Shown here one piece after another: positions 5,754 through 48,967 of a stretch of 64,000 bases of DNA. The notes beneath the pieces were generated by a model. The model was not told where the DNA came from. It did no database searches and saw only the letters and a list, made by a program, of their open reading frames with translations. Source of the stretch: Halobacteriovorax marinus (GTDB lineage: Bacteria; Bdellovibrionota; Bacteriovoracia; Bacteriovoracales; Bacteriovoracaceae). A program made the position numbers and the translations under genes. The stretch spans positions 62,001 to 126,000 of the forward strand of contig MAAO01000002.1 in the NCBI GenBank assembly GCA_002163155.1. The letters run 5' to 3'. Each line of letters begins with the position of its first letter. Position 1 is the first letter of the stretch.

Positions 5754-6788
5754 TTGAAGAAATCATTCTACGGACTAAATTTTGCAGATCTTGAAAATCT
5801 TCTCATTGAGAATAAGCTCAATCCTACGGCCGCAGCTCTGCTCTACACTTGGCATTACAAGAAGAAACAAACCAGTCAGTGCCTGGATAACGTTTCTAAG
5901 AAAACGATTAAATTTCTTGAAGAGAACATTCACTTCGACTTACCAGTTATAGACACAGTTTCTGAAGCTGAAGATAGTACGGTTAAATTCTTAGTTAAAT
6001 TAAATGATGGGAAAAAAGTAGAATCGGTTCTCATTCCTTTTCATAATAAGTATTCCATTTGTATTTCTTCTCAAGTGGGCTGTGCCATGAACTGCTCCTT
6101 TTGTTTTACGGGAACGCAAGGTCTTAAGAGAAATCTTTTAACAGAAGAGATCGTAGGACAATTTCTTGTAGCTTGGCATTGGCTAGCAAAGAATAGGCCA
6201 GGGCAAGAGAGAATCTTAAATATTGTCTTCATGGGACAAGGTGAACCCCTCCATAATTTTGATCATGTGAAAAAGGCCTGTGAGATCTTTCTCTCAAGTC
6301 ATGGAACTTCTGTAGGGCATCAGAAGATTACCATTTCTACTTCAGGTTATATCCCGGGACTAAAGAGATGGAAGGATGAAATTCCTGGCGTCAATTTAGC
6401 GTTATCTCTTCATTCTCCATTTGAAGAAAAGAGAAATGAACTTATTCCCATTAATAAGAAATACCCTCTAGCAGAAGTTCTAGAGTATTTAGATGCTATT
6501 CCCTTAAAGAAGAAACAATTTGTCACCTATGAGTATCTTCTTATAGCTGGATTCAATGACTCAGACATTGACGCTCATAAAACGGGAGAGTTGATTCAGG
6601 GAAAGAAGGCCTATATCAATCTGATTCCCTTTAATCCATTTCCAGGTACCAAATATAAGAGACCTAGCTACGAACAAGTGGGTCGCTTTAAAGAGATTCT
6701 AGATACCTATAAAATCCCAACCATTATTCGTGGAACTAAAGGGGACGATGTTCTAGCTGCGTGTGGTCAACTTAACACAGCAACTTAA
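5754..6788 (+). CDS. rlmN: 23S rRNA (adenine2503-C2)-methyltransferase RlmN
   Basis: This radical-SAM enzyme methylates C2 of A2503 in 23S rRNA and of A37 in some tRNAs. It has 344 residues. The 4Fe-4S cysteines are C110, C114 and C117 in VGCAMNCSFCFTG. GQGEPLHN carries the conserved GE motif, and Cys337 in LAACGQL is the methyl-carrying cysteine of the family. The start is TTG; AGGTTAGAG lies 9-17 bases upstream. The gene follows the methyltransferase by 22 bases in the same plus-strand run. Confidence 0.95.
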   Translation: MKKSFYGLNFADLENLLIENKLNPTAAALLYTWHYKKKQTSQCLDNVSKKTIKFLEENIHFDLPVIDTVSEAEDSTVKFLVKLNDGKKVESVLIPFHNKYSICISSQVGCAMNCSFCFTGTQGLKRNLLTEEIVGQFLVAWHWLAKNRPGQERILNIVFMGQGEPLHNFDHVKKACEIFLSSHGTSVGHQKITISTSGYIPGLKRWKDEIPGVNLALSLHSPFEEKRNELIPINKKYPLAEVLEYLDAIPLKKKQFVTYEYLLIAGFNDSDIDAHKTGELIQGKKAYINLIPFNPFPGTKYKRPSYEQVGRFKEILDTYKIPTIIRGTKGDDVLAACGQLNTAT

Positions 6789-6812
6789 GCTCTATCGTGT
6801 TATAGTCTCACT

Positions 6813-7070
6813 ATGACAAAATCAAATGGCATGTTTGCCACAATGTATGAAGTTAAAAAAGATTCAGAACTTGGAAAGTATCTAGTGTGTCCCCTGGGAA
6901 CAGAGGAACATTTGGATTATGCAATCGTGTGCAATAGTGAGTTTGATGCTAAGAATATCTGTGCACAAATTGCTATGCAAATGTTAGCTACACCAGAAGA
7001 ATCTCCCTTGAAATACAACTCCAAGGGAATTCATAGTAATGGTCGTACACGCTTATATTCACTGAAGTAA
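6813..7070 (+). CDS. small hypothetical protein
   Basis: This encodes 85 residues with no signal peptide. The start ATG lacks an obvious ribosome site; a TATAGT sequence ends six bases upstream, so a nearly leaderless transcript is possible. The protein has three Cys and mixed alpha/beta composition, and it ends in TRLYSLK. It lies between rlmN and the yaeQ-like gene, 13 bases ahead of the latter. I do not recognise the family. Confidence 0.6.
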   Translation: MTKSNGMFATMYEVKKDSELGKYLVCPLGTEEHLDYAIVCNSEFDAKNICAQIAMQMLATPEESPLKYNSKGIHSNGRTRLYSLK

Positions 7071-7083
7071 GGAAGAAGTCACA

Positions 7084-7620
7084 ATGGCCCTCGGCGCTAC
7101 TATTTTTAAAGTAAATTTAAACATCTCAAATTTTAATACTCACTACTATCAAGATGATAATCTCACCTTGGCGATGCATCCTTCTGAAAATGAAGCTCGT
7201 ATGATGTACCGACTCTTGGCCTACATTTACTGTGCCCACGAAGACTTGGAATTTTCCAAAGGACTCAGCAATACTGAAGAGCCAGAACTGTGGCAAAAAG
7301 CTCTAACTGGTGACATTATTCACTGGATTGAATTAGGTCTGCCAGATGAGAAGAGAATTAGGCAAGCTGCTGGAAAATCTCAGAAGGTTTCTATTTTCAC
7401 TTATCATCAAAAGAAAGCACAGGATTGGCTTCCCAAGATAAAAGCGAAGTTTGATAACAATGAGAAGGTTAATATATTTCACTTAGAAGTGGTTGAAAAT
7501 GGACCGATTGATAAGTTTGTGACCAAATCTATGAACTTAAGTTGTACAATAGAAGACAACTTAATGTACCTCGGAAACGACGATGAGAGAATTGGGATTG
7601 AAGTCACGAAATCCTGTTAG
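7084..7620 (+). CDS. yaeQ: YaeQ-family protein
   Basis: This encodes 178 residues, the usual YaeQ length. The start MALGATIFKVNLNISN and the following HYYQDDNLTLAMHPSE match the conserved N-terminal strands of YaeQ. The ELWQKALTGDIIHWIELGLPDEKRIRQA block around residues 66-95 is the family core. Structures of YaeQ show a restriction-endonuclease-like (PD-(D/E)XK) fold, but its biochemical role is unsettled. GGAAG lies upstream of the ATG. The solute-binding protein follows after five bases. Confidence 0.9.
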   Translation: MALGATIFKVNLNISNFNTHYYQDDNLTLAMHPSENEARMMYRLLAYIYCAHEDLEFSKGLSNTEEPELWQKALTGDIIHWIELGLPDEKRIRQAAGKSQKVSIFTYHQKKAQDWLPKIKAKFDNNEKVNIFHLEVVENGPIDKFVTKSMNLSCTIEDNLMYLGNDDERIGIEVTKSC

Positions 7621-38760: not shown

Positions 38761-39810
38761 ATGTTTAAGAATTTAGAGAGACGAGATATATTTCTTTGGT
38801 ACTTAATCCTAAGTGCCATGACTGTTCTCATGGTTTTTGTTGGTGGATTAACTAGGCTAACTGGTTCTGGTTTATCCATGGTGGATTGGAAACCAATTAT
38901 GGGTGTCATTCCTCCCTTATCTCTAGAGAGTTGGTTAGAGGCCTTTGAAAACTATAAGAGGTTTCCTGAGTTTCAACAAACGAAGAGCTCTCTAACATTG
39001 GAAGGATTTAAATCTATTTTCTATCTTGAATATCTTCATCGAATTCTTGGACGCTCTTTTGCTCCTGTTTTGATTTTTCCTTGGATCTTCTTTAACTTTA
39101 AAAAGAAACTTCTTAGAAAAGATAACTTTAAAATATTGGGAATGTTACTTCTTGGAGGATCGCAAGGCCTTATGGGCTGGTACATGGTTAAGAGTGGGTT
39201 AGTGAATGATCCCTATGTTAGTCACTATCGATTAGCCGCCCATCTCATTCTCGCCATTTTCATAATGGGGCTATTTTTTTGGATGGCGTTAAGAGAATTG
39301 CCTAGTGCAGAAAAAGCACAGAGTGAATCTTCTCTCTTGAAAAAATTATCATGCATTATTCTTAGTTTAATTATTGTACAAATTATCTATGGAGCCTTCA
39401 TGGCAGGTTTAGGTGCCGGTCATGGTTACAATACTTTTCCAAAGATGGGGGAAGTGTGGTTTCCTGAGCAATTACAATTTTCTGGGATAAGCTCTTTGCT
39501 ATCGAAAATGATTTCTGACAATACGTTTGTTCATTTTATTCATAGACTACTGGCCTATACGCTTTCTCTCTTAATTTGTTTTATGTTCTATAAATCAAGA
39601 AAGACCCAGTTAAACACAAGTCAAAAATCTGCTATTAAGCACCTGCTTTATATGGTGGTTCTTCAGTTTACTCTTGGAGTGATCACTCTCTTAACTTTTG
39701 TTCCTATTTTCATGGCATCAATTCACCAAATGGGAGCGGTGGCACTCTTTATCGCTGGGGTTTATACAGTATTTACTTTTAGCGAAAATGAAATCACTAC
39801 TTCGCTGTAA
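38761..39810 (+). CDS. ctaA: heme A synthase (CtaA/COX15 family)
   Basis: This membrane enzyme oxidises heme O to heme A for cytochrome oxidase. About 349 residues from the ATG with AAAGGA ten bases upstream; a start at 38743 would add six residues. Eight spans and the paired heme-ligand histidines are visible: EYLHRILGR, SHYRLAAHL, FVHFIHRLLAY and SIHQMGA. The early GGLTRLTGSGLSMVDWKP block is typical of COX15-type enzymes, as is the long loop with GHGYNTFPKMGEVW. It implies an aa3-type oxidase elsewhere. Its end overlaps the cyclase gene by 14 bases. Confidence 0.95.
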   Translation: MFKNLERRDIFLWYLILSAMTVLMVFVGGLTRLTGSGLSMVDWKPIMGVIPPLSLESWLEAFENYKRFPEFQQTKSSLTLEGFKSIFYLEYLHRILGRSFAPVLIFPWIFFNFKKKLLRKDNFKILGMLLLGGSQGLMGWYMVKSGLVNDPYVSHYRLAAHLILAIFIMGLFFWMALRELPSAEKAQSESSLLKKLSCIILSLIIVQIIYGAFMAGLGAGHGYNTFPKMGEVWFPEQLQFSGISSLLSKMISDNTFVHFIHRLLAYTLSLLICFMFYKSRKTQLNTSQKSAIKHLLYMVVLQFTLGVITLLTFVPIFMASIHQMGAVALFIAGVYTVFTFSENEITTSL

Positions 39811-42043
39811 GGGTGTAGACTCCGTCCCATTCTTCTGGTGGCGGGTTCTCTTTAAAATCATGGCACCTCTTAATATAAACCTCACTAGGATTAATTGAAG
39901 GGATTTTGTTAGGGTATCTATTCTTTTCAAATTGGATGCTAGTAGTAAATTCTTTAATAGCTTCATCCCACTGTTTATTCTTGTAAAACTCTAGTCCCTT
40001 TTCAAACGTCTCTTTTAAATCTAATAAGTTTTTTTCTGTTTCTCCGTGGCTCCCTAGGAGATCAAACGTTTTTACGGGCTCACTCTTTCCTACAACTTTT
40101 ATAGTATCTAACTCTCGCCAATCAAAACCTTCTCCTGTTAAATTCTTAGTAAATTCTGTCACATGATTGAAGATTCCATATTGTTTGGCCGCTTCTTCTA
40201 AGCGTGCTGCGAGATTCACAGAATCTCCCATCATAGTGTAATTCATTCTGTTTTTTGAGCCCATATTTCCAGTCACTATTTCTCCAGAATTTAAACCAAT
40301 CCTCATACGCATAATTTTAACAACTGCGGGCCATTTGTCTCCTTCGCTGACCCATTTCTCTCTTAATTCAAGTAGTGCTTCCTGCATTTTTAAACTAACC
40401 CTACAAGCCCTAGAGGCGTGATCATCCTGATGCATAGGAGCACCAAAGAAAGCAATAATGGCATCTCCTTCATACTTATCCAGTGTCCCATGTTCATCTA
40501 GGAGAATATCTGTCATGACGGTTAAGTATTCATTTAGAAGTTCCACTAATTCTGTGGCCGACAATTTTTCAGAGAAAGAGGAAAAACTTTGAATGTCTGT
40601 AAAGAAAGCGGTGAGTTCTTCTGCTTTTCCTCCAAGAGTAGGTTGATCACCACTGTCATACATCATCTCAATAAGTTCGGGAGAAATATAGTTACCAAAA
40701 GCTTGTCTCAAGAACGCTTTGTCCTTAGTCGTATTATAAAAATCAAGCATGGTTATCCATAAATAAGAACCAATGACTGCGTGAAGTACAAAGAAGAGCG
40801 TAAGTTCATAACCCAGTGGGGAGAAATAAAAAGTATCAGAAAGGATTAAACCTAGGGAAAATGAAATAACAAAAATTGCATCATAGAAGGCACTTTCTTT
40901 CCAAGATATAGCAATCATAGAAAAAGTTCCTAAGAGCATTAAGCACCATGACCATAGGAATGAAGAATTCTTGGGGGCAAAATTTCTCTTATCAAGCATC
41001 ATTTGCGCCATATTCATGTGAAAGAAAACTCCTGGAAGTTTAGGATCTACAGGTGTGTATCTCAAATCATGGGCACCAAATGCGGTGGAAGCAATAAAAA
41101 CCGCTTTATCTTTAAACGCTTCAAACATATCAGGGTCATCATTACTGGCCTCTAGTAATTGATAAATAGGAACGCTCAAAAAGTTTGTACTATCTCCTAA
41201 CCAGATGATTTTAGTTTCTCCTCCGAAGTTCAACTCCAACTCCCCGTAGGGTAATTTCAAAACTCCAGATCCTTGAGCATCTATATTGATTTGAGGTGTT
41301 TCTTTTGATAGTAACTGATAAGTTGAGAGAGCAATTGAGGGTAGAAACATTTCGTCTAAATTAGCAACGACAGGATATTTTCTAAACACTCCATCAGGAT
41401 CTTCTTTCGCTCCAATAAAAGCAAGCACAGGATCTGCTGCAAGAATTTTATCTATGGGATAAGTTGTAGACATGACTCTGAAGATTTCTAAACTAAGTTC
41501 TGCTTCTTGATTAGATTCTAATATGAAGTTATATAAAGTATCAGGTGTTTCACTCAAGGATACATTATCTTCTTCTTGATCTATAGATGCTAGCGAGTAA
41601 GGAATGATAATTTTCTTACCATGCTTCTGAAATTTCTTTATTGCAGTTGCAAATTCTTCATCGGGGCTTATTTTAGCAATTGACCTTTCAACTTCGGAAA
41701 AGACCACATCAAAAGCTATGACTTTCGCACCGTAGTGGTCAAGCTTCTCAATAATAGGAACCCAGGTTGCTCTTGACCAAGGAAAACGTCCTAGTTTTTT
41801 TAAAGAGAGATCATCGATTGCGGCGAGGGCAATATCCTTAGAAATAGGTGTTTTGTCACGTGAGACATTCATACGAAAATCATAGAAGCGATCTTCAAAG
41901 TATGATGGGTAAATAAGCATGTTCTTCACCCATACGGGAAAATTAGAGTATTCTATTTGTCTTTGAAATTGGTAGATACCAACACTAATAATAGAAAACA
42001 CAACCAAATTAAATAGTCCGACAAAGCGTACAATCTTAAACAT
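39797..42043 (-). CDS. CHASE2-domain class III adenylate/guanylate cyclase
   Basis: This encodes 748 residues. An N-terminal span (about 8-25) leads into a periplasmic CHASE2 sensor domain (about 35-340, with DIALAAIDDLSLKKLGRFPWSR and KAVFIASTAFG). Three spans follow (about 355-440), then a class III cyclase domain (about 480-680) with metal Asp residues in FFTDIQSFSSFS and KYEGDAIIAFFG, and the TMMGDSVNLAARLE motif carrying the purine-specifying Asp and the catalytic Asn and Arg. A short TPR-like tail follows. It faces the FecR operon across 121 bases. Confidence 0.93.
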   Translation of the reverse strand: MFKIVRFVGLFNLVVFSIISVGIYQFQRQIEYSNFPVWVKNMLIYPSYFEDRFYDFRMNVSRDKTPISKDIALAAIDDLSLKKLGRFPWSRATWVPIIEKLDHYGAKVIAFDVVFSEVERSIAKISPDEEFATAIKKFQKHGKKIIIPYSLASIDQEEDNVSLSETPDTLYNFILESNQEAELSLEIFRVMSTTYPIDKILAADPVLAFIGAKEDPDGVFRKYPVVANLDEMFLPSIALSTYQLLSKETPQINIDAQGSGVLKLPYGELELNFGGETKIIWLGDSTNFLSVPIYQLLEASNDDPDMFEAFKDKAVFIASTAFGAHDLRYTPVDPKLPGVFFHMNMAQMMLDKRNFAPKNSSFLWSWCLMLLGTFSMIAISWKESAFYDAIFVISFSLGLILSDTFYFSPLGYELTLFFVLHAVIGSYLWITMLDFYNTTKDKAFLRQAFGNYISPELIEMMYDSGDQPTLGGKAEELTAFFTDIQSFSSFSEKLSATELVELLNEYLTVMTDILLDEHGTLDKYEGDAIIAFFGAPMHQDDHASRACRVSLKMQEALLELREKWVSEGDKWPAVVKIMRMRIGLNSGEIVTGNMGSKNRMNYTMMGDSVNLAARLEEAAKQYGIFNHVTEFTKNLTGEGFDWRELDTIKVVGKSEPVKTFDLLGSHGETEKNLLDLKETFEKGLEFYKNKQWDEAIKEFTTSIQFEKNRYPNKIPSINPSEVYIKRCHDFKENPPPEEWDGVYTLTAK

Positions 42044-42093
42044 CTAATCTCCCTGCTATCTTTTCGACTTTTTATCATTTCATGCAACATAAT

Positions 42094-42124
42094 TTTCTTT
42101 AAAGAAATAGAACTCATAAGTTCT
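42094..42124. promoter_or_regulatory. two adjacent palindromes in the cyclase/FecR control region
   Basis: TTTCTTTAAAGAAA (42094-42107) is a perfect 14-base palindrome and AGAACT-CATA-AGTTCT (42109-42124) follows one base later. They lie between the divergent cyclase and FecR-domain genes, about 50 and 40 bases from the respective starts, and are good candidate regulator sites. Confidence 0.55.
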
Positions 42125-42164
42125 TGCTTCGATAAAAAAATCCAAAATAAAATAGAATTATTCT

Positions 42165-44315
42165 ATGAAAAAACTACTACTACTTACTATTTTACTCAAT
42201 TTCTCATCCACCTCTGCCAAAGGGATTATTGCTACAATAACTCTTTTGAAAGGATCCGGAAGTGTCCTCTTTCCCGGCGCACAACATGTTGTTCCTATAA
42301 AGAAGGGAATGAAGCTTCTCGAAGACACATCCATTCTTACAAATGATAAAACGTTTGTGAAAATCTCCTTTTTAGCTGGTGGGAAAACTTCAATCGGTGC
42401 CAATACTAAAATCGTATTGGTTAAGGGGGGTAAGAAGAAAGCAACATTTGTTAGTCTTCTTAAAGGTCAGATCAGAGCGAATATTCCTAAGAAGTCGGGA
42501 AGGGTGCACGATAACCTAAAACATAAACTCATTATAAAAACTCGCCATGCCTCACTTGGGGTAAGGGGAACAGAGTTTTTGACTGTGCACAACCCTGAAA
42601 ACCATATTACTTCCATGATTACGTTTAAGGGGGAAGTGGCCTTTGTGAAAGTGAAGAAGAATCTACTTTCTACTAAGGTTGAAAAAAGAATTCTTGGTCT
42701 GATGCAGGTTGATGATTTTGATGCCATCCTAGATGGAAAGGATTCTGAAGTTGTACGAGAGGGAAGATATTCAGGAGTCATACCTACTAAAGAAATTGCC
42801 ACTATCCCTACTAAAATTTCTCCAAAACAATACGAGATTTTAAAAAGTAACGTAAATCTGGACTTTGATAATAAGAGTGAAGTTGTTAGTAATGGTGAAA
42901 AGGATAAGAAGGGAACTTATAAAACTTATGTTGATGATCCTCCTGCAGAAGGATTTTATGATGATGAAACTGGAGCTTATGCACCAAGGTCCGGTGGTTA
43001 TTTAGATATAGAAACGAGTATTTATGTTCAACCTGACCCTGGAAGTAAGTTAGATAAAAAAAATAATGTCTATATTCTCTCTGATCAATTTGGTGGCGTT
43101 GATGAAAAAACTGGGGATTATATTCCCCCTGAAGGTTTAAGTCTTACTGCTAGTAAGGGATTTGTTATTAAAGATATGACAAATGCAGAACAACTTCGAA
43201 TTGCATCAAAAGTTTTTGGTATTGATGTAGATGGAATCTTAACTCCAAAGATCAAACGAAATTTAAAGAAGAGTTTATCGCAAATGTTATTTGTAAAGAA
43301 AGCTATTCTTAATAATGAGATTCGAGATGAGCTCTTAGACCTTGAAGATTCAGATGTTGATGGATTAGAAAACATTGCAAGAGAATTTAGAAGAGCACTT
43401 GATAGTATTAAAGAGGTATTGGAAGTGAATACTTCTCTCGCTCTAGGTACAAGTTCAAATGTAACTGATCAGGCATTTGGCCAAACATTTAAAGTTTCAA
43501 ATGTAAGTAGCTCGTTCTTGGAGTTTGATTTTGAAATTAAACATAACAACTATCTCTTATCTAACTGGGTTTCTACACCATATTTTGGTTTTGAATTAAC
43601 TAAGTATTTCTCTAGTCACGAAAATGTAAAGAGCTCTTCACTTTGGGTTTTTAATATAGGAATCGAAAATAAAATTAGTCATGGATTTGGAGATTTAAAT
43701 ATTGATTTAGAAGTTAAGAAGGCCAGCAAACTAGAAAAGAATAATATGTTCTACGAATCTTTTTACAATGTTGAAAGTGTTAAACACCAATCCGAGAGTA
43801 GTTTCTTTTATCAATTCATAGAAGTCTCTGTGAAAGAAAAAATTAAAATAGACAAATGGAGATCTGTTTCATTTGGAGCAGATTTTAAAAACTATGACAC
43901 TTTTTCAGAGACTCTTAATGGGAAACAATTTAACTATTGGGCAGAATTACAAGGACGTTTCCTTCCCCGCTATGAATTAGTAGGCAAGTATTTAGTTTCA
44001 GATCGCTCGTCTAAGCAATCAATTGGAAAAACATCCAAAACAGGTTTTTCGGCACAGTTTAATATCTACGAAATTTATACGAGATTCACTTTTCGCTCAG
44101 AATTCTCTAATTTTTCTCTTAAACACAAAGATAGCGTCGTGGCCAGCTCCAAGGGTGTGGAGAAGGAAAGTACATTGAAGTTTGGTTTAGATTCAGAACT
44201 CGGAATCAATTTCTCTATTGGTCTTAATCAAGAATTTATAAAAGTAAAAAGTTTATTAAACGAAGCAAATTATAAGGAAAGTAAAACTATGGTGAGTTTA
44301 AATTATACCTACTAG
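42165..44315 (+). CDS. exported FecR-domain protein with barrel-like C-terminus
   Basis: This encodes 716 residues with a signal peptide (cleavage near TSAKG). Residues about 25-165 match a FecR domain (VLFPGAQHVVPIKKGMKL, DTSILTNDKTFVKISFLAG, then TRHASLGVRGTEFLTVH). Four short repeats at about 264-325 share a D-x2-T-x2-Y pattern ending in Pro-Gly. A helical linker follows, then about 250 residues of aromatic-rich strands ending NYTY, as in outer-membrane barrels. Unlike classical FecR it has no cytoplasmic part. First gene of an operon containing an ECF sigma factor. Confidence 0.85.
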   Translation: MKKLLLLTILLNFSSTSAKGIIATITLLKGSGSVLFPGAQHVVPIKKGMKLLEDTSILTNDKTFVKISFLAGGKTSIGANTKIVLVKGGKKKATFVSLLKGQIRANIPKKSGRVHDNLKHKLIIKTRHASLGVRGTEFLTVHNPENHITSMITFKGEVAFVKVKKNLLSTKVEKRILGLMQVDDFDAILDGKDSEVVREGRYSGVIPTKEIATIPTKISPKQYEILKSNVNLDFDNKSEVVSNGEKDKKGTYKTYVDDPPAEGFYDDETGAYAPRSGGYLDIETSIYVQPDPGSKLDKKNNVYILSDQFGGVDEKTGDYIPPEGLSLTASKGFVIKDMTNAEQLRIASKVFGIDVDGILTPKIKRNLKKSLSQMLFVKKAILNNEIRDELLDLEDSDVDGLENIAREFRRALDSIKEVLEVNTSLALGTSSNVTDQAFGQTFKVSNVSSSFLEFDFEIKHNNYLLSNWVSTPYFGFELTKYFSSHENVKSSSLWVFNIGIENKISHGFGDLNIDLEVKKASKLEKNNMFYESFYNVESVKHQSESSFFYQFIEVSVKEKIKIDKWRSVSFGADFKNYDTFSETLNGKQFNYWAELQGRFLPRYELVGKYLVSDRSSKQSIGKTSKTGFSAQFNIYEIYTRFTFRSEFSNFSLKHKDSVVASSKGVEKESTLKFGLDSELGINFSIGLNQEFIKVKSLLNEANYKESKTMVSLNYTY

Positions 44316-44324
44316 GGTTAATGT

Positions 44325-45959
44325 TTGACGAAGAAATTTAAGTTAGTACTTAGAACGTTCTTAATGTTTTTTATAGCTATTACGCTTAGTGGATTACTAT
44401 ATGCAGATTCAAAGAAAATCCATCTCACAGAAAAGGAAGCTTTTGATTTAGGTATGTCTTCATTTAAAAAGAAAAAATATATTCAGAGTTTGCAGTTTTG
44501 GAATTATCTCTGTGAAAAGAATTCTAAGAAAGGTGTATATTTCTTCAATAGAGGAAATGTTTACTTCTCTTTGCAAGATTATCAAGCAGCACTTTTATCT
44601 TATAGGCGAGTCTTAGAGGTTGATAGTGAACTTTCTCAAGTCGCAGCTCTGTACATGTCAAAGTGTTATAAAAAATTGGGGAAATTTTCTACCGCTAAAT
44701 TGACTCTTCGCTCTTTATTAAAGAGTCAAGATTTAAGACCTACTGTTAGAGGTCTTGCTCAAGAAGAAGTTGAATTAATAAAAGAAGCGAAGAAATCAAA
44801 AGATCGTGAACAAAAATCTATTCCTCTTGAATTTGTTCTTGGCCTTAAGTATTTTAAACAACAGAAGTATGTTGAATCTATTGCGAACTTAGAGCTTGCT
44901 AGCAAAAGTTATTCAAGTCCTGAGTTATACCTAATAAAGGGAATTTGTTATTTTAAACTTAATAATAATAAACTTGCTAAAGTTAATTTAAGATTAGCAG
45001 CTAAAAAATCTAGCGATCCTGACATAATTAGTAATGCTAGTGCTCTAATGTCTCTTATCAAGCAGAAGGAATCTGAAGTTGTAGCTGTAGTCTCTCCTTG
45101 GAATATAACTCTTGGAGCAACTCTTGATTATACGACAAATCCCTTAAATGTCACAGAAGTAGATACTGGAAGTAAGGAATCTCAATATTCTCTAAGTTTT
45201 GGTTTAGGGTATGATTTTATTGTATTCAATGGCTTTCGTATTAGTCCTAATTATGATCTAAGCTTTGATCAATCTTTTAAAACATCTGATGACCGCTTTG
45301 TTGAACATGTAGGAAGTTTGTCTCTTCTTTACTTTGGTAATTTAGGCTACATAAAGCTATTGCCAAGTTTCACAAAGCAGGACTCCGGTAAGAAGCCGTA
45401 CCTTACGAAGTCTGGCGGTAGCTTTAGTGGAAACATCAATTATCTCAAGTTCTTCTCTACATCATTAAGTTTTGTCACAAGTCAGAATAATCCTGAAAGT
45501 ATTGAACAAAGCTATTTAAATGGTAAATCAAATAGTCTCTCTATAAGCGAAACATTTTCTACAGAGAAGTTTTCTTTTAGTGCATCACTATCTCTTACTA
45601 AGGATCAATTTCAAGATGAAGCTGATAATGTTCTAAGTAAGAAAGCCACAGGCGCAAGTTTAGGACTCTACTTTTATCCACTAGAAGTTTTCACCATTTC
45701 TACTTCCTTAAATTACTTAAGAGAAGTTTATAAAGAGGACTCTAGTAGTGGCTTTATCAGAAAAAATACGCAAACCTCTCTAAGTTTAGGGCTGACTTAC
45801 GATCTAACTAAGAAAGTTAATATATTCTTTAATAGTAATCTCTCCATTGATGACGGGAATTTAGATACGCAAACAAATGAAGTAGGGGTGTCTTTAACTG
45901 ATGATCTCTATGAATTCGATGAACAAGTTTCAATAGGTATAACCTGGTATATTTTATGA
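44325..45959 (+). CDS. TPR protein with C-terminal outer-membrane barrel-like domain
   Basis: This encodes 544 residues from a TTG start with an N-terminal hydrophobic export signal (LMFFIAITLSGLLYA). Residues about 30-240 hold TPR repeats (for example VYFFNRGNVYFSLQDYQAALLSYRR-type helices). From about 250 the sequence changes to alternating strands (NITLGATLDYTT, SLSFGLGYDF, SFSASLSLT) to the final GITWYIL, as in a barrel. The stop overlaps the sigma-factor start as ATGA, so they are translationally coupled. It resembles other TPR-plus-barrel proteins used in secretion or surface assembly. Confidence 0.8.
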   Translation: MTKKFKLVLRTFLMFFIAITLSGLLYADSKKIHLTEKEAFDLGMSSFKKKKYIQSLQFWNYLCEKNSKKGVYFFNRGNVYFSLQDYQAALLSYRRVLEVDSELSQVAALYMSKCYKKLGKFSTAKLTLRSLLKSQDLRPTVRGLAQEEVELIKEAKKSKDREQKSIPLEFVLGLKYFKQQKYVESIANLELASKSYSSPELYLIKGICYFKLNNNKLAKVNLRLAAKKSSDPDIISNASALMSLIKQKESEVVAVVSPWNITLGATLDYTTNPLNVTEVDTGSKESQYSLSFGLGYDFIVFNGFRISPNYDLSFDQSFKTSDDRFVEHVGSLSLLYFGNLGYIKLLPSFTKQDSGKKPYLTKSGGSFSGNINYLKFFSTSLSFVTSQNNPESIEQSYLNGKSNSLSISETFSTEKFSFSASLSLTKDQFQDEADNVLSKKATGASLGLYFYPLEVFTISTSLNYLREVYKEDSSSGFIRKNTQTSLSLGLTYDLTKKVNIFFNSNLSIDDGNLDTQTNEVGVSLTDDLYEFDEQVSIGITWYIL

Positions 45960-46489
45960 AAGATATTAAACAAATATTCATTGGTGCAAGAGAAGGCAGA
46001 AACGATTGTGTTCAATTTCTCATTGAAATTTATCAACCTCGTTTATTAAAATTCTGCTTCTTTCTCACAGGTGATTACAATCTCGCCCAGGATATTTCAC
46101 AGGAAACATTTCTTAAAATGTTAAAAAATCTTCATAGTATTAAATCTGAAAAGGCTATTTACAGTTGGTTAATTACTGTCGCAAGAAACAACTTCTTAGA
46201 TATTAAAAAGAGTAAGTTTAATTCTTTAGAGGAGTTACCGCTAAACTCCCTCGTTGATCGAAATAACCATGACTTAGAACTCTTACATGATCTGGCTTAC
46301 GCCTTCTCTCAACTCGAGGTTAAGGATAGACTCGTATTACTCGTCGTTGATTTTGAAAAACTTTCCTACATAGAATCTGCACAATTCCTTGATATAAGTG
46401 AGAATGCGCTGAAATTGCGTCTGCACAGAGCGAGAAAGAAATTATTATCAATCTTAGATGAAACAAACCCTTACTCTGAGTCGTCTTAA
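45956..46489 (+). CDS. ECF-type RNA polymerase sigma factor
   Basis: This sigma-70-family regulator of 177 residues has only the two essential regions. Region 2 runs about 20-85 (FCFFLTGDYNLAQDISQETFLKML, with AIYSWLITVARNNFLD as 2.4). Region 4 runs about 115-165 (RLVLLVVDFEKLSYIESAQFLDISENALKLRLHRARKKLL), a clear helix-turn-helix. Its start overlaps the TPR-barrel stop, and a single-span membrane protein gene overlaps its end, the usual place for an anti-sigma factor. Confidence 0.93.
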   Translation: MKDIKQIFIGAREGRNDCVQFLIEIYQPRLLKFCFFLTGDYNLAQDISQETFLKMLKNLHSIKSEKAIYSWLITVARNNFLDIKKSKFNSLEELPLNSLVDRNNHDLELLHDLAYAFSQLEVKDRLVLLVVDFEKLSYIESAQFLDISENALKLRLHRARKKLLSILDETNPYSESS

Positions 46490-46955
46490 ATATATGAAGA
46501 CTAAATACGAGCATTATATTCAGGAATTTGAGAATCTAAACTTTAAGGATAGTTCAGTAATCTATAAGGACTATTCTAGGTGGAAAGTGCAGCGACGTAT
46601 GATTCATTTTACTAGCTCAGTAGTCATTGTTTTACTGTTAACTTTTTCAAACTCCAACATAGGAACTACGACAAGTTTTAATGTAGTAGACGATAATATC
46701 TATAAAGTGCAGTTGCTTGGAAGCGATAAGTTTCCAAGTGTTCAAGTTATCTTAGGGGAGGGATTATCCTTTGTTTCAGATAAATTTCCCTCCGTTTCTG
46801 AATTGCGTGAATTAGATTTTGAAGTTTCTTTGGAGGGTCTATCTATTTTAGTGACATCAGACTCTAAAGGAACAAAACCAATACTTCTTAAGTATTACAA
46901 CTCAGATAAGAAGTATTTGATTAAGAAAGTATATTTGAATATTAAGTCACTATAA
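46458..46955 (+). CDS. single-span membrane protein, candidate anti-sigma factor
   Basis: This encodes 165 residues (153 if the ATG at 46494 is used). About 50 cytoplasmic residues precede one membrane span (HFTSSVVIVLLLTF), with about 95 residues outside. The order cytoplasmic N-terminus, one span, extracytoplasmic C-terminus, and the overlap with the sigma gene, match many anti-sigma factors. I see no zinc HxxxCxxC motif or known anti-sigma domain, so the call is contextual. No lipobox. Confidence 0.6.
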   Translation: MKQTLTLSRLKYMKTKYEHYIQEFENLNFKDSSVIYKDYSRWKVQRRMIHFTSSVVIVLLLTFSNSNIGTTTSFNVVDDNIYKVQLLGSDKFPSVQVILGEGLSFVSDKFPSVSELRELDFEVSLEGLSILVTSDSKGTKPILLKYYNSDKKYLIKKVYLNIKSL

Positions 46956-46968
46956 GGAAGTAGAAAGT

Positions 46969-48411
46969 ATGAAGAAGATTGGCATCATTTTACTTATTTA
47001 TTCGTTACTCATTTCGCAGGCCTTAAGTGAAGTCTATATGGCCGATTCCGATGATATTACTAAGTTTGATAAAATCTTAAAAAAAGTCTTAAAGGCCAAG
47101 CAGAAGAAAGCTAAGTCTCAAGTAGCGGGTAGTTCTGAAGAAACAAAAGAGTCTACAGAATCTACAGAATCTAAAGATGATGAAAATTCATTGCTTGGTA
47201 AACTCATGAGCGATGAGAACTTAAAAGAAATTGTTGTTGATGAACTCTCTGGAGAAATTGATTCTCTAAGACAAGTCCTTAAGGCCTACTTAATTCAAAC
47301 CCAATCGCGTAGAATTTCTGGCGGGTCTCAAGACTTTAGTACTAGTACAACAGACCCTGAAGCTTTGAGGGAGTTACAAGAGCTTATCGAAGCAAATATA
47401 TTTACGCCTGAGCCTGAAGAGGTCGTGGTTAATGAACCTGACCCAGATCCAACTCCGGACCCCGATCCAACTCCTGACCCAGATCCAACTCCGGACCCAG
47501 ATCCAACTCCGGACCCCGATCCAACTCCGGACCCAGATCCAACTCCGGACCCCGATCCAACTCCTGACCCAGATCCAACTCCGGACCCCGATCCAACTCC
47601 TGACCCAGATCCAACTCCGGACCCCGATCCAACTCCTGACCCAGATCCAACTCCGGACCCCGATCCAACTCCGGATCCAGATCCAACTCCGGACCCAGAT
47701 CCAACTCCGGACCCCGATCCAACTCCAGATCCGACGTCCGATCTACAAAGAAGAATTGATAAGATCCAAAATAAATTGGAGCAAGCTAAACTTAGAATTA
47801 TAGCTAATTATGTAAGAAGTTATGATCACTTAAAAGAAGTTCTCGAAAGTCATCCTCACGGAGGTAAAGTTGATAGAATTCTAGCTAAGAGTGAAGCTCG
47901 TAAAGATAAGAAAATTGCTTTTGTAACTAATCTCTTTGACTCAAAAAAGGATCATATTGAAGATGTTCTTACAAAGCACTCTGATCACGGACATGATGGT
48001 GATTTAAAACATCATATTAAAAAAGGTAAGGTGGTTGCTAATTACTTGTCCAAGTACCATAAGCTTAAAAGTAAAATTTATAAGAGTCACTCTAAGTATA
48101 AAGAAGATAAGTTCAAAGCTCGTTCAAAATTTAGAAAATTTAAAGCACTATTTTCTAAAAACGACAACTTTGTGGCTAAGTTGGAGAAAAAGAAAGCTAA
48201 ATTGAAAAAGAAAATTGATAAAATTAATGAAAGAAGAAAAAAGAAAAATGACAAAATTCGTGCACGAATTAAACATATTAAGGAAAAGAAAATTGAAAGG
48301 TTAAAAAGGATAAAGGAGAAGCACAAAAAATATCATGATAAACATAAGAAGCATGGGCATGATGGACACGATGGGAATCACCACGGTCATGACGATGATG
48401 ATGACGATTAG
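46969..48411 (+). CDS. secreted PDPTPD-repeat protein with His/Asp-rich C-terminus
   Basis: This encodes 480 residues with a signal peptide (ending near ALSE). After an acidic helical region come sixteen copies of the hexapeptide PDPTPD (residues about 159-254), which should form an extended rod. A Lys-rich coiled-coil region follows, containing HPHGGK, HSDHGHDGD and KHGHDGHDG segments, and the protein ends in HHGHDDDDDD. The His/Asp clusters should bind divalent metal. No LPXTG or barrel anchor is seen. Last gene of the FecR/ECF operon and probably its surface or periplasm-spanning product. Confidence 0.85.
   Translation: MKKIGIILLIYSLLISQALSEVYMADSDDITKFDKILKKVLKAKQKKAKSQVAGSSEETKESTESTESKDDENSLLGKLMSDENLKEIVVDELSGEIDSLRQVLKAYLIQTQSRRISGGSQDFSTSTTDPEALRELQELIEANIFTPEPEEVVVNEPDPDPTPDPDPTPDPDPTPDPDPTPDPDPTPDPDPTPDPDPTPDPDPTPDPDPTPDPDPTPDPDPTPDPDPTPDPDPTPDPDPTPDPDPTPDPDPTPDPTSDLQRRIDKIQNKLEQAKLRIIANYVRSYDHLKEVLESHPHGGKVDRILAKSEARKDKKIAFVTNLFDSKKDHIEDVLTKHSDHGHDGDLKHHIKKGKVVANYLSKYHKLKSKIYKSHSKYKEDKFKARSKFRKFKALFSKNDNFVAKLEKKKAKLKKKIDKINERRKKKNDKIRARIKHIKEKKIERLKRIKEKHKKYHDKHKKHGHDGHDGNHHGHDDDDDD
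47443..47730 (+). repeat. 16 tandem copies of an 18-base unit
   Basis: The unit CCAGATCCAACTCCGGAC (with third-base variants such as CCC, CCT and GAT) is repeated sixteen times in frame and encodes PDPTPD. Units are near-identical, so recent expansion is likely. Copy-number change keeps the frame and would alter rod length in steps of six residues. Confidence 0.95.
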
Positions 48412-48550: not shown

Positions 48551-48967
48551 ATGGAAGAAAGAAAATTATCTGACTTATATCCTCATCAAATTTTACTTGT
48601 GGAGGATAATATCAAAAATCAAAAGGTTGCTAAAAGGACCTTTGAAAAGTTAGGTTATAGCTGTGACATAGTCGAAAATGGATTGCAGGCCTTGGATCTG
48701 ATTGATTCGAAAAGTGTAGGTCATTATTCAATTGTCTTCATGGATATTCAAATGCCTGTAATGGATGGTATTGCTGCCTCTAAGGACCTTCTTGTTACCT
48801 ATGGTTCTTCTCGCCCTAGAGTTGTTGCTATGACTGCAAATGTCTTTAAAGAAGATAAGAAGAAGTGTAGGGAAGCGGGAATGGAGTATTTTCTCTCTAA
48901 GCCAGTGGATATAAAGCAGCTTGAAGATGTTCTTGTTAAATTCTATTCTCGACAAAATGTAGCTTGA
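48551..48967 (+). CDS. single-domain response regulator (CheY-like)
   Basis: This encodes 138 residues, only a receiver domain. The acidic pair is in LLVEDNIKNQ, the phosphoacceptor Asp is in FMDIQMPVMDG, the switch Thr/Ala in VAMTAN and the Lys in FLSKPVD. These fit the receivers of hybrid kinases. No kinase gene is adjacent. The 139-base AT-rich gap upstream holds a TAACC-CGATA-GGTTA inverted repeat at about 48496-48510 but no clear promoter boxes. Confidence 0.92.
   Translation: MEERKLSDLYPHQILLVEDNIKNQKVAKRTFEKLGYSCDIVENGLQALDLIDSKSVGHYSIVFMDIQMPVMDGIAASKDLLVTYGSSRPRVVAMTANVFKEDKKKCREAGMEYFLSKPVDIKQLEDVLVKFYSRQNVA

Follow-up and report, generated by a model that had tools for sequence, protein, structure and literature searches.

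A four-gene cassette of a TPR-barrel protein, an ECF sigma factor, a candidate anti-sigma factor and a tagged secreted protein in Bdellovibrionota, flanked by FecR and CHASE2 cyclase genes in two genomes

Results

Organization of the block

The window (the whole stretch of 64,000 nucleotides that was analysed) comes from a 4.5-Mb genome assembled in 16 contigs, which the relatives of its cyclase assign to Bacteriovoracales, phylum Bdellovibrionota. A block of six genes is located at positions 39797–48411, and gene calls together with the family scan confirm every gene named there by the preliminary description. On the minus strand, and divergent from the operon formed by the other genes, lies that of a CHASE2-class III nucleotide cyclase of 748 amino acids (39797–42043; gene call, family scan and tree). 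The operon, on the plus strand, starts with the gene for an exported FecR-domain protein of 716 residues with a C-terminal β-strand region, a member of a paralogue family (42165–44315; scan and model). It is followed by the genes for a 544-residue protein with a TPR solenoid and a 14-stranded outer membrane β-barrel (44325–45959; scan and structure model), an ECF sigma factor of 177 residues with homologues at the same position in relatives (45956–46489; family scan), a single-span anti-sigma factor candidate of 153 residues (46494–46955; profile and alignment), and a secreted partner of 480 residues (46969–48411; alignment, tag profile and repeat scan). The divergent promoter region between the cyclase and FecR-barrel genes (42044–42164, no strand assigned) contains the inverted repeat AGAACTCATAAGTTCT.

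The stop codon of the TPR-barrel gene and the start codon of the sigma factor gene overlap as ATGA (45956–45959), exactly as had been reported. The single-span gene probably starts at 46494, 4 nt past the sigma factor stop codon and without overlap. The start codon of the TPR-barrel gene is TTG, or else an internal ATG. No promoter motif common to the upstream regions of the relatives' operons rises above shuffled background.

A lone receiver-domain response regulator is encoded just 3′ of the block (48551–48967). It does not belong to the unit and is missing from the matching locus of Bacteriovorax sp. MedPE-SWde.

The TPR-barrel protein

The TPR family match of this protein has an E value of 7e-12. 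Its structure model (25 sequences) has a mean pLDDT of 88, with the TPR solenoid at residues 36–253 and 14 strands at residues 259–542. The matches of the predicted barrel include OmpG and CymA, with Z scores of about 22. Those of the TPR arm are the peptide-binding TPRs of SycD, PcrH and CHIP, with Z scores of about 18; in both cases this is a statement of shared fold. BcsC, the barrel of which has 16 strands, is among the Foldseek matches that span both the TPR and barrel regions. Comparison of the barrel model with viral structures gives generic porin and TPR matches only.

The family scan detects no TonB receptor family in the window protein, and the model has no plug. A search for PF04575 gave no match to the window barrel at E≤1 and none to three further members at E≤0.5, the remaining members being judged among the 25 most frequent families listed.

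The sigma factor and the single-span protein

The sigma factor matches PF04542 (region 2, 1.1e-12) and PF08281 (region 4, 3.2e-9). For the single-span protein and the repeat protein, the family scan finds no family above the curated cut-off.

A single transmembrane segment, at about residues 36–54, separates the short, basic N-terminus of the single-span protein from its periplasmic domain, which has about 100 residues. In the alignment, a P-x-P-[FY]-x-K-T-R-[VI]-L-A-like segment precedes the membrane span in many relatives; most of them have a longer and less degenerate N-terminal segment than the window copy. This is the layout of class I anti-sigma factors, with an anti-sigma segment, a transmembrane segment and a gene beside that of an ECF sigma factor. 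The zinc-binding HxxxCxxC motif of the ZAS subgroup is absent from the alignment, the family scan gives no FecR match in the protein, and its periplasmic domain has no match among the sequences of solved structures.

In Desulfobacterota, where there are only partial matches to the single-span profile (9 of 297 genomes), the profile matches zinc anti-sigma factors over the segment that follows the zinc domain, together with the transmembrane segment. Of the five loci in which such a protein was called, four have a sigma factor gene upstream. Because of these matches and the segment ahead of the membrane, we read the single-span protein as an anti-sigma factor that lacks the zinc half, and it is probably the anti-sigma factor of the block. 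The FecR protein is not the anti-sigma factor.

The secreted partner

The secreted partner in the window has a signal peptide, the mature N-terminus EVYMADSDDITKFDKIL, a PDPTPD spacer, a Lys-rich stretch and a His/Asp tail. The spacer, noted earlier as a PDPTPD repeat, is real: it is encoded by an 18-bp tandem array for (PDPTPD)n on the plus strand, with 15.9 copies at 47440–47726 and 91% matches. The protein is the largest member of its family, and among the loci read the spacer is found only in the window species and MedPE-SWde. The MedPE-SWde orthologue (L102:14776–15952) is split by a frame break within the array, which could reflect either misassembly or switching.

Throughout the family, the signal peptide (called by eye) is followed directly by a tag, for example VPATSEDLxxFDxxL, with the motif A[TS]xxDxxxFD. 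The tails beyond it cannot be aligned, and their pI values range from 4 to 12. The preliminary description suggested a surface fibre or spacer, which is hypothetical for the protein in the window; its family combines a constant N-terminal tag with unrelated tails. No C-terminal export signal or lipobox is seen in the alignment of the secreted proteins.

A profile of the tag gives strong matches in Bacteriovoracales (E<1e-13) in six genomes only, all of which carry the module, with one copy each and no orphans. Since the proteins used to build the profile were themselves linked to the module, the informative part of this result is only that orphans are absent. Weaker matches mostly cover the signal peptide.

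A four-gene core in the phylum

The profile of the single-span protein identifies 27 loci in 26 of 369 genomes of the phylum, from nine families. The surroundings of these loci show a core in the order TPR-barrel, ECF sigma factor, single-span protein and small secreted protein. In each of the 26 loci for which the 5′ side of the single-span gene is covered, the gene immediately before it is that of the sigma factor. Of 25 testable loci, 22 have the TPR-barrel gene immediately 5′ of the sigma factor gene, and 26 of the 27 loci encode, immediately 3′ of the single-span gene, a secreted protein with an A[TS]xxDxxxFD-type tag. These counts are not independent, as the genomes are related. The exceptions for the barrel gene are one gene off (L104), divergent (L282) and missing (L278). 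The conserved unit across the phylum is therefore this core of four genes, and not all six as the preliminary description had supposed.

Two genomes have a TPR-barrel and secreted-protein gene pair without the sigma and anti-sigma factor genes (L105 and L106). This suggests a division into a working pair, formed by the barrel and its client, and a sigma pair that controls it. Mantel comparisons of tree distances give r = 0.56 for the sigma factor with the barrel and r = 0.58 for the sigma factor with the anti-sigma factor (0 of 2000 permutations), and a weak value of r = 0.23 for the barrel with the anti-sigma factor (104 of 2000).

Two loci have further features. In L104, a secreted protein of 177 residues that is extremely rich in Lys and Arg is encoded between the TPR-barrel and sigma factor genes (6778–7311). 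An apparent fusion of the anti-sigma and secreted-protein genes in L283 was rejected, as an assembly gap of Ns lies between the two.

A search of 25 genomes beyond the phylum, carried out without a positive control, returned an empty answer for the cassette.

The FecR protein and the cyclase

The cyclase matches the CHASE2 domain at E = 1.4e-43 and the class III cyclase domain at 4.7e-25. Its motifs are complete, with FFTDI (480), KYEGDAI (523) and YTMMGDSVNLAAR (602). The metal Asp pair is kept, and the Lys/Thr specificity pair is one that, from what is generally known of class III enzymes, we take to be that of an adenylate cyclase.

The FecR match of the 716-residue protein has an E value of 1.4e-9. 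The model contains a confident FecR domain at residues 21–163, which can be superimposed on the signalling domain of PupR (6ovk) with a Z score of 13.5 and an rmsd of 2.7 over 140 residues. It is followed by about 12 C-terminal strands with pLDDT of about 55. The protein had been described as an exported FecR domain joined to barrel-like strands; the signal-peptide-like N-terminus and the FecR domain agree with this, and the term barrel-like is plausible and not firm.

Relatives of the cyclase are found in 115 of 125 genomes of the order, and relatives of the FecR protein in 115 of 129. The FecR-barrel family has undergone a large expansion, with up to ten relatives per genome in many genomes of the order, and genome G000 has 16 FecR-domain genes.

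Many loci in Bacteriovoracales (L115, L116, L118–L120 and others) contain a co-directional operon of FecR, TPR-barrel and CHASE2 cyclase genes, with the cyclase last (referred to as module A). One copy is located in the source genome itself (C1:919179–924404, L120), and its cyclase and the window cyclase share 51% identity. Unlike the core in the window, module A has three genes, with no sigma factor, anti-sigma factor or tagged secreted protein. The barrels of the core and of module A can be aligned over their full length, with an hhalign probability of 98.2.

FecR genes also adjoin CHASE2 cyclase genes in many loci of Neomarinimicrobiota, and operons of FecR and CHASE2 kinase genes have been published in Burkholderia (PMC5192318). 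In view of these loci and module A, the pairing of cyclase and FecR genes is a common arrangement of an already known type. In Neomarinimicrobiota and Spirochaetales (L226 and L227), matches of the TPR-barrel profile with 912 and 1020 residues adjoin CHASE2 cyclases.

The complete block in a second genus

The window and Bacteriovorax sp. MedPE-SWde (G050, L102 and L158) are the only two cases in which the core is flanked by the cyclase and FecR-barrel genes. For the four proteins with the longest alignments, the identities between the two are 54% (cyclase), 35% (FecR-barrel), 36% (TPR-barrel) and 34% (sigma factor). The borders of the block are sharp, with different genes outside it on either side. 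The two cyclases are sisters in the tree (support 0.86), and in MedPE-SWde the FecR and TPR-barrel genes overlap as TAATG. The nearest other cyclase relatives (L109 and L110) have no FecR or TPR-barrel neighbours. Other genomes of both genera do not have the block, which has therefore been lost often or has moved as a unit.

The check for a conserved neighbourhood thus finds it kept in relatives and does not refute the earlier reading. The proposal of an envelope-facing sigma factor system with unusual parts, kept in relatives, holds in that the block recurs in one other genus.

Comparison with known systems

As in FecA-FecR-FecI and PupB-PupR-PupI, the window encodes an outer membrane barrel, an ECF sigma factor and a membrane anti-sigma factor candidate, and the model of its FecR domain resembles the signalling domain of PupR. 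In contrast to these two systems, the barrel in the window is porin-like, with 14 strands and a TPR arm, and no TonB-dependent receptor domain is found in it. The FecR domain belongs to an exported protein with C-terminal strands, and the anti-sigma factor candidate has no FecR domain.

The BiofilmReg operon of Burkholderia (LysM-FecR, CHASE2 histidine kinase and response regulator; PMC5192318) also has the gene of an exported FecR protein next to that of a CHASE2 sensor. In comparison, the output in the window is a class III cyclase, the FecR domain is joined to barrel-like strands, and a TPR-barrel and the sigma factor cassette are added. Type XI secretion (Slam/NilB, DUF560; PMC8406197) has in common with the cassette a periplasmic TPR arm, a 14-stranded barrel (by the model in our case) and a clustered exported partner. 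Unlike type XI secretion, the cassette has no PF04575 in the members scanned, its partner has no lipobox, and a sigma/anti-sigma pair is included.

In Bdellovibrio bacteriovorus HD100, Bd0880-Bd0881-Bd0882 likewise have an ECF sigma factor followed by a single-span protein, and deletion of bd0881 reduces the efficiency of predation (PMC3464611). The bd0880-0882 operon was rejected as a copy of the cassette, as its upstream gene is small and Spy-like, and there is no barrel and no tagged secreted protein. Bd0882 (L309:6770–7078), a single-span protein of 102 residues encoded after the sigma factor Bd0881, matches the anti-sigma profile weakly (4.2e-5); the published account reports no anti-sigma homology for it (PMC3464611).

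We found no description of the four-gene cassette in the open-access literature, which is weak evidence of novelty. Sigma/anti-sigma surface signalling is already known, and it is this set of four parts that appears, on that weak evidence, to be undescribed. According to the preliminary description, no described system with the set of genes in the block was known. This remains acceptable for the cassette, and does not hold for the pairing of cyclase and FecR genes, which is separate, common and of a described type (PMC5192318).

Discussion

The architecture of the cassette is well supported in its gene order, predicted barrel fold, anti-sigma-like layout and fixed client tag. We propose that it consists of an outer membrane TPR-barrel and a dedicated exported client, watched by the ECF sigma/anti-sigma pair, a proposal whose chances we put just short of even. 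The client would be exported to the periplasm, where its N-terminal tag may dock in the groove of the TPR arm. This step is weak, because structural matches of the kind observed for the arm are common among TPRs. The barrel would then export or display the client, with the tail as the variable surface part. The periplasmic domain of the anti-sigma factor could sense free client or free barrel, such that failure or completion of assembly would release the sigma factor to transcribe its own operon.

In the window species and MedPE-SWde, the same outer membrane hub is linked to a CHASE2 cyclase, and hence probably also reports via cAMP. The connection of cyclic nucleotide and sigma factor output that was proposed earlier may hold, as suggested by the gene linkage at these two loci. 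The scheme in its entirety, with a TPR-barrel translocator that reads the A[TS]xxDxxxFD tag, a variable displayed tail, a sigma pair that reads export, and in some species a CHASE2 cyclase in parallel, is a good deal more speculative, and we consider it rather unlikely to hold in every part.

The secreted protein could instead be a periplasmic stress reporter or inhibitor, of the CpxP or RseB kind, that binds the anti-sigma factor, with the barrel as a porin-type receptor or stress sensor. Small, soluble and hydrophilic proteins beside an anti-sigma factor with a periplasmic domain would suit such a function, as would the lack of a visible C-terminal export signal or lipobox. On the other hand, the pairs without a sigma factor in two genomes point to a partnership of barrel and client, and the tails are as variable as surface-exposed sequences. 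We regard this function as unlikely. The presence of BcsC among the structural matches raises another one, in which exopolysaccharide would leave the cell through the barrel, as with PgaA or BcsC, and the secreted protein would be part of the matrix. However, the model has 14 strands as compared to 16 in PgaA (PMC8406197), and no polysaccharide synthase or glycosyltransferase recurs near the cassette, with the neighbours judged by eye, which makes an exporter of this kind highly improbable.

A further question concerns the relationship of the cyclase/FecR pair to the cassette. They may be independent neighbours, which would be compatible with a barrel and client watched by a sigma pair. They occur together in only two of 26 genomes, the cyclase is on the opposite strand, and its relatives in L109 and L110 are without nearby FecR or TPR-barrel genes. 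Yet the entire block is retained with exact borders across two genera at 34–54% identity, the FecR and TPR-barrel genes overlap in MedPE-SWde, and FecR, TPR-barrel and CHASE2 cyclase genes form an operon elsewhere too. We consider independence possible but doubtful.

If the barrel and its client are indeed watched by the sigma pair, a phylum with predatory bacteria, in which few sigma factors have been studied, would gain a defined sigma/anti-sigma cassette and a testable set of partners. The signal of FecR/CHASE2 sensors has been stated to be unknown (PMC5192318), and these sensors would become tied to a physical hub in the outer membrane. The tagged, hypervariable secreted proteins are candidates for surface molecules that face the prey or the environment.
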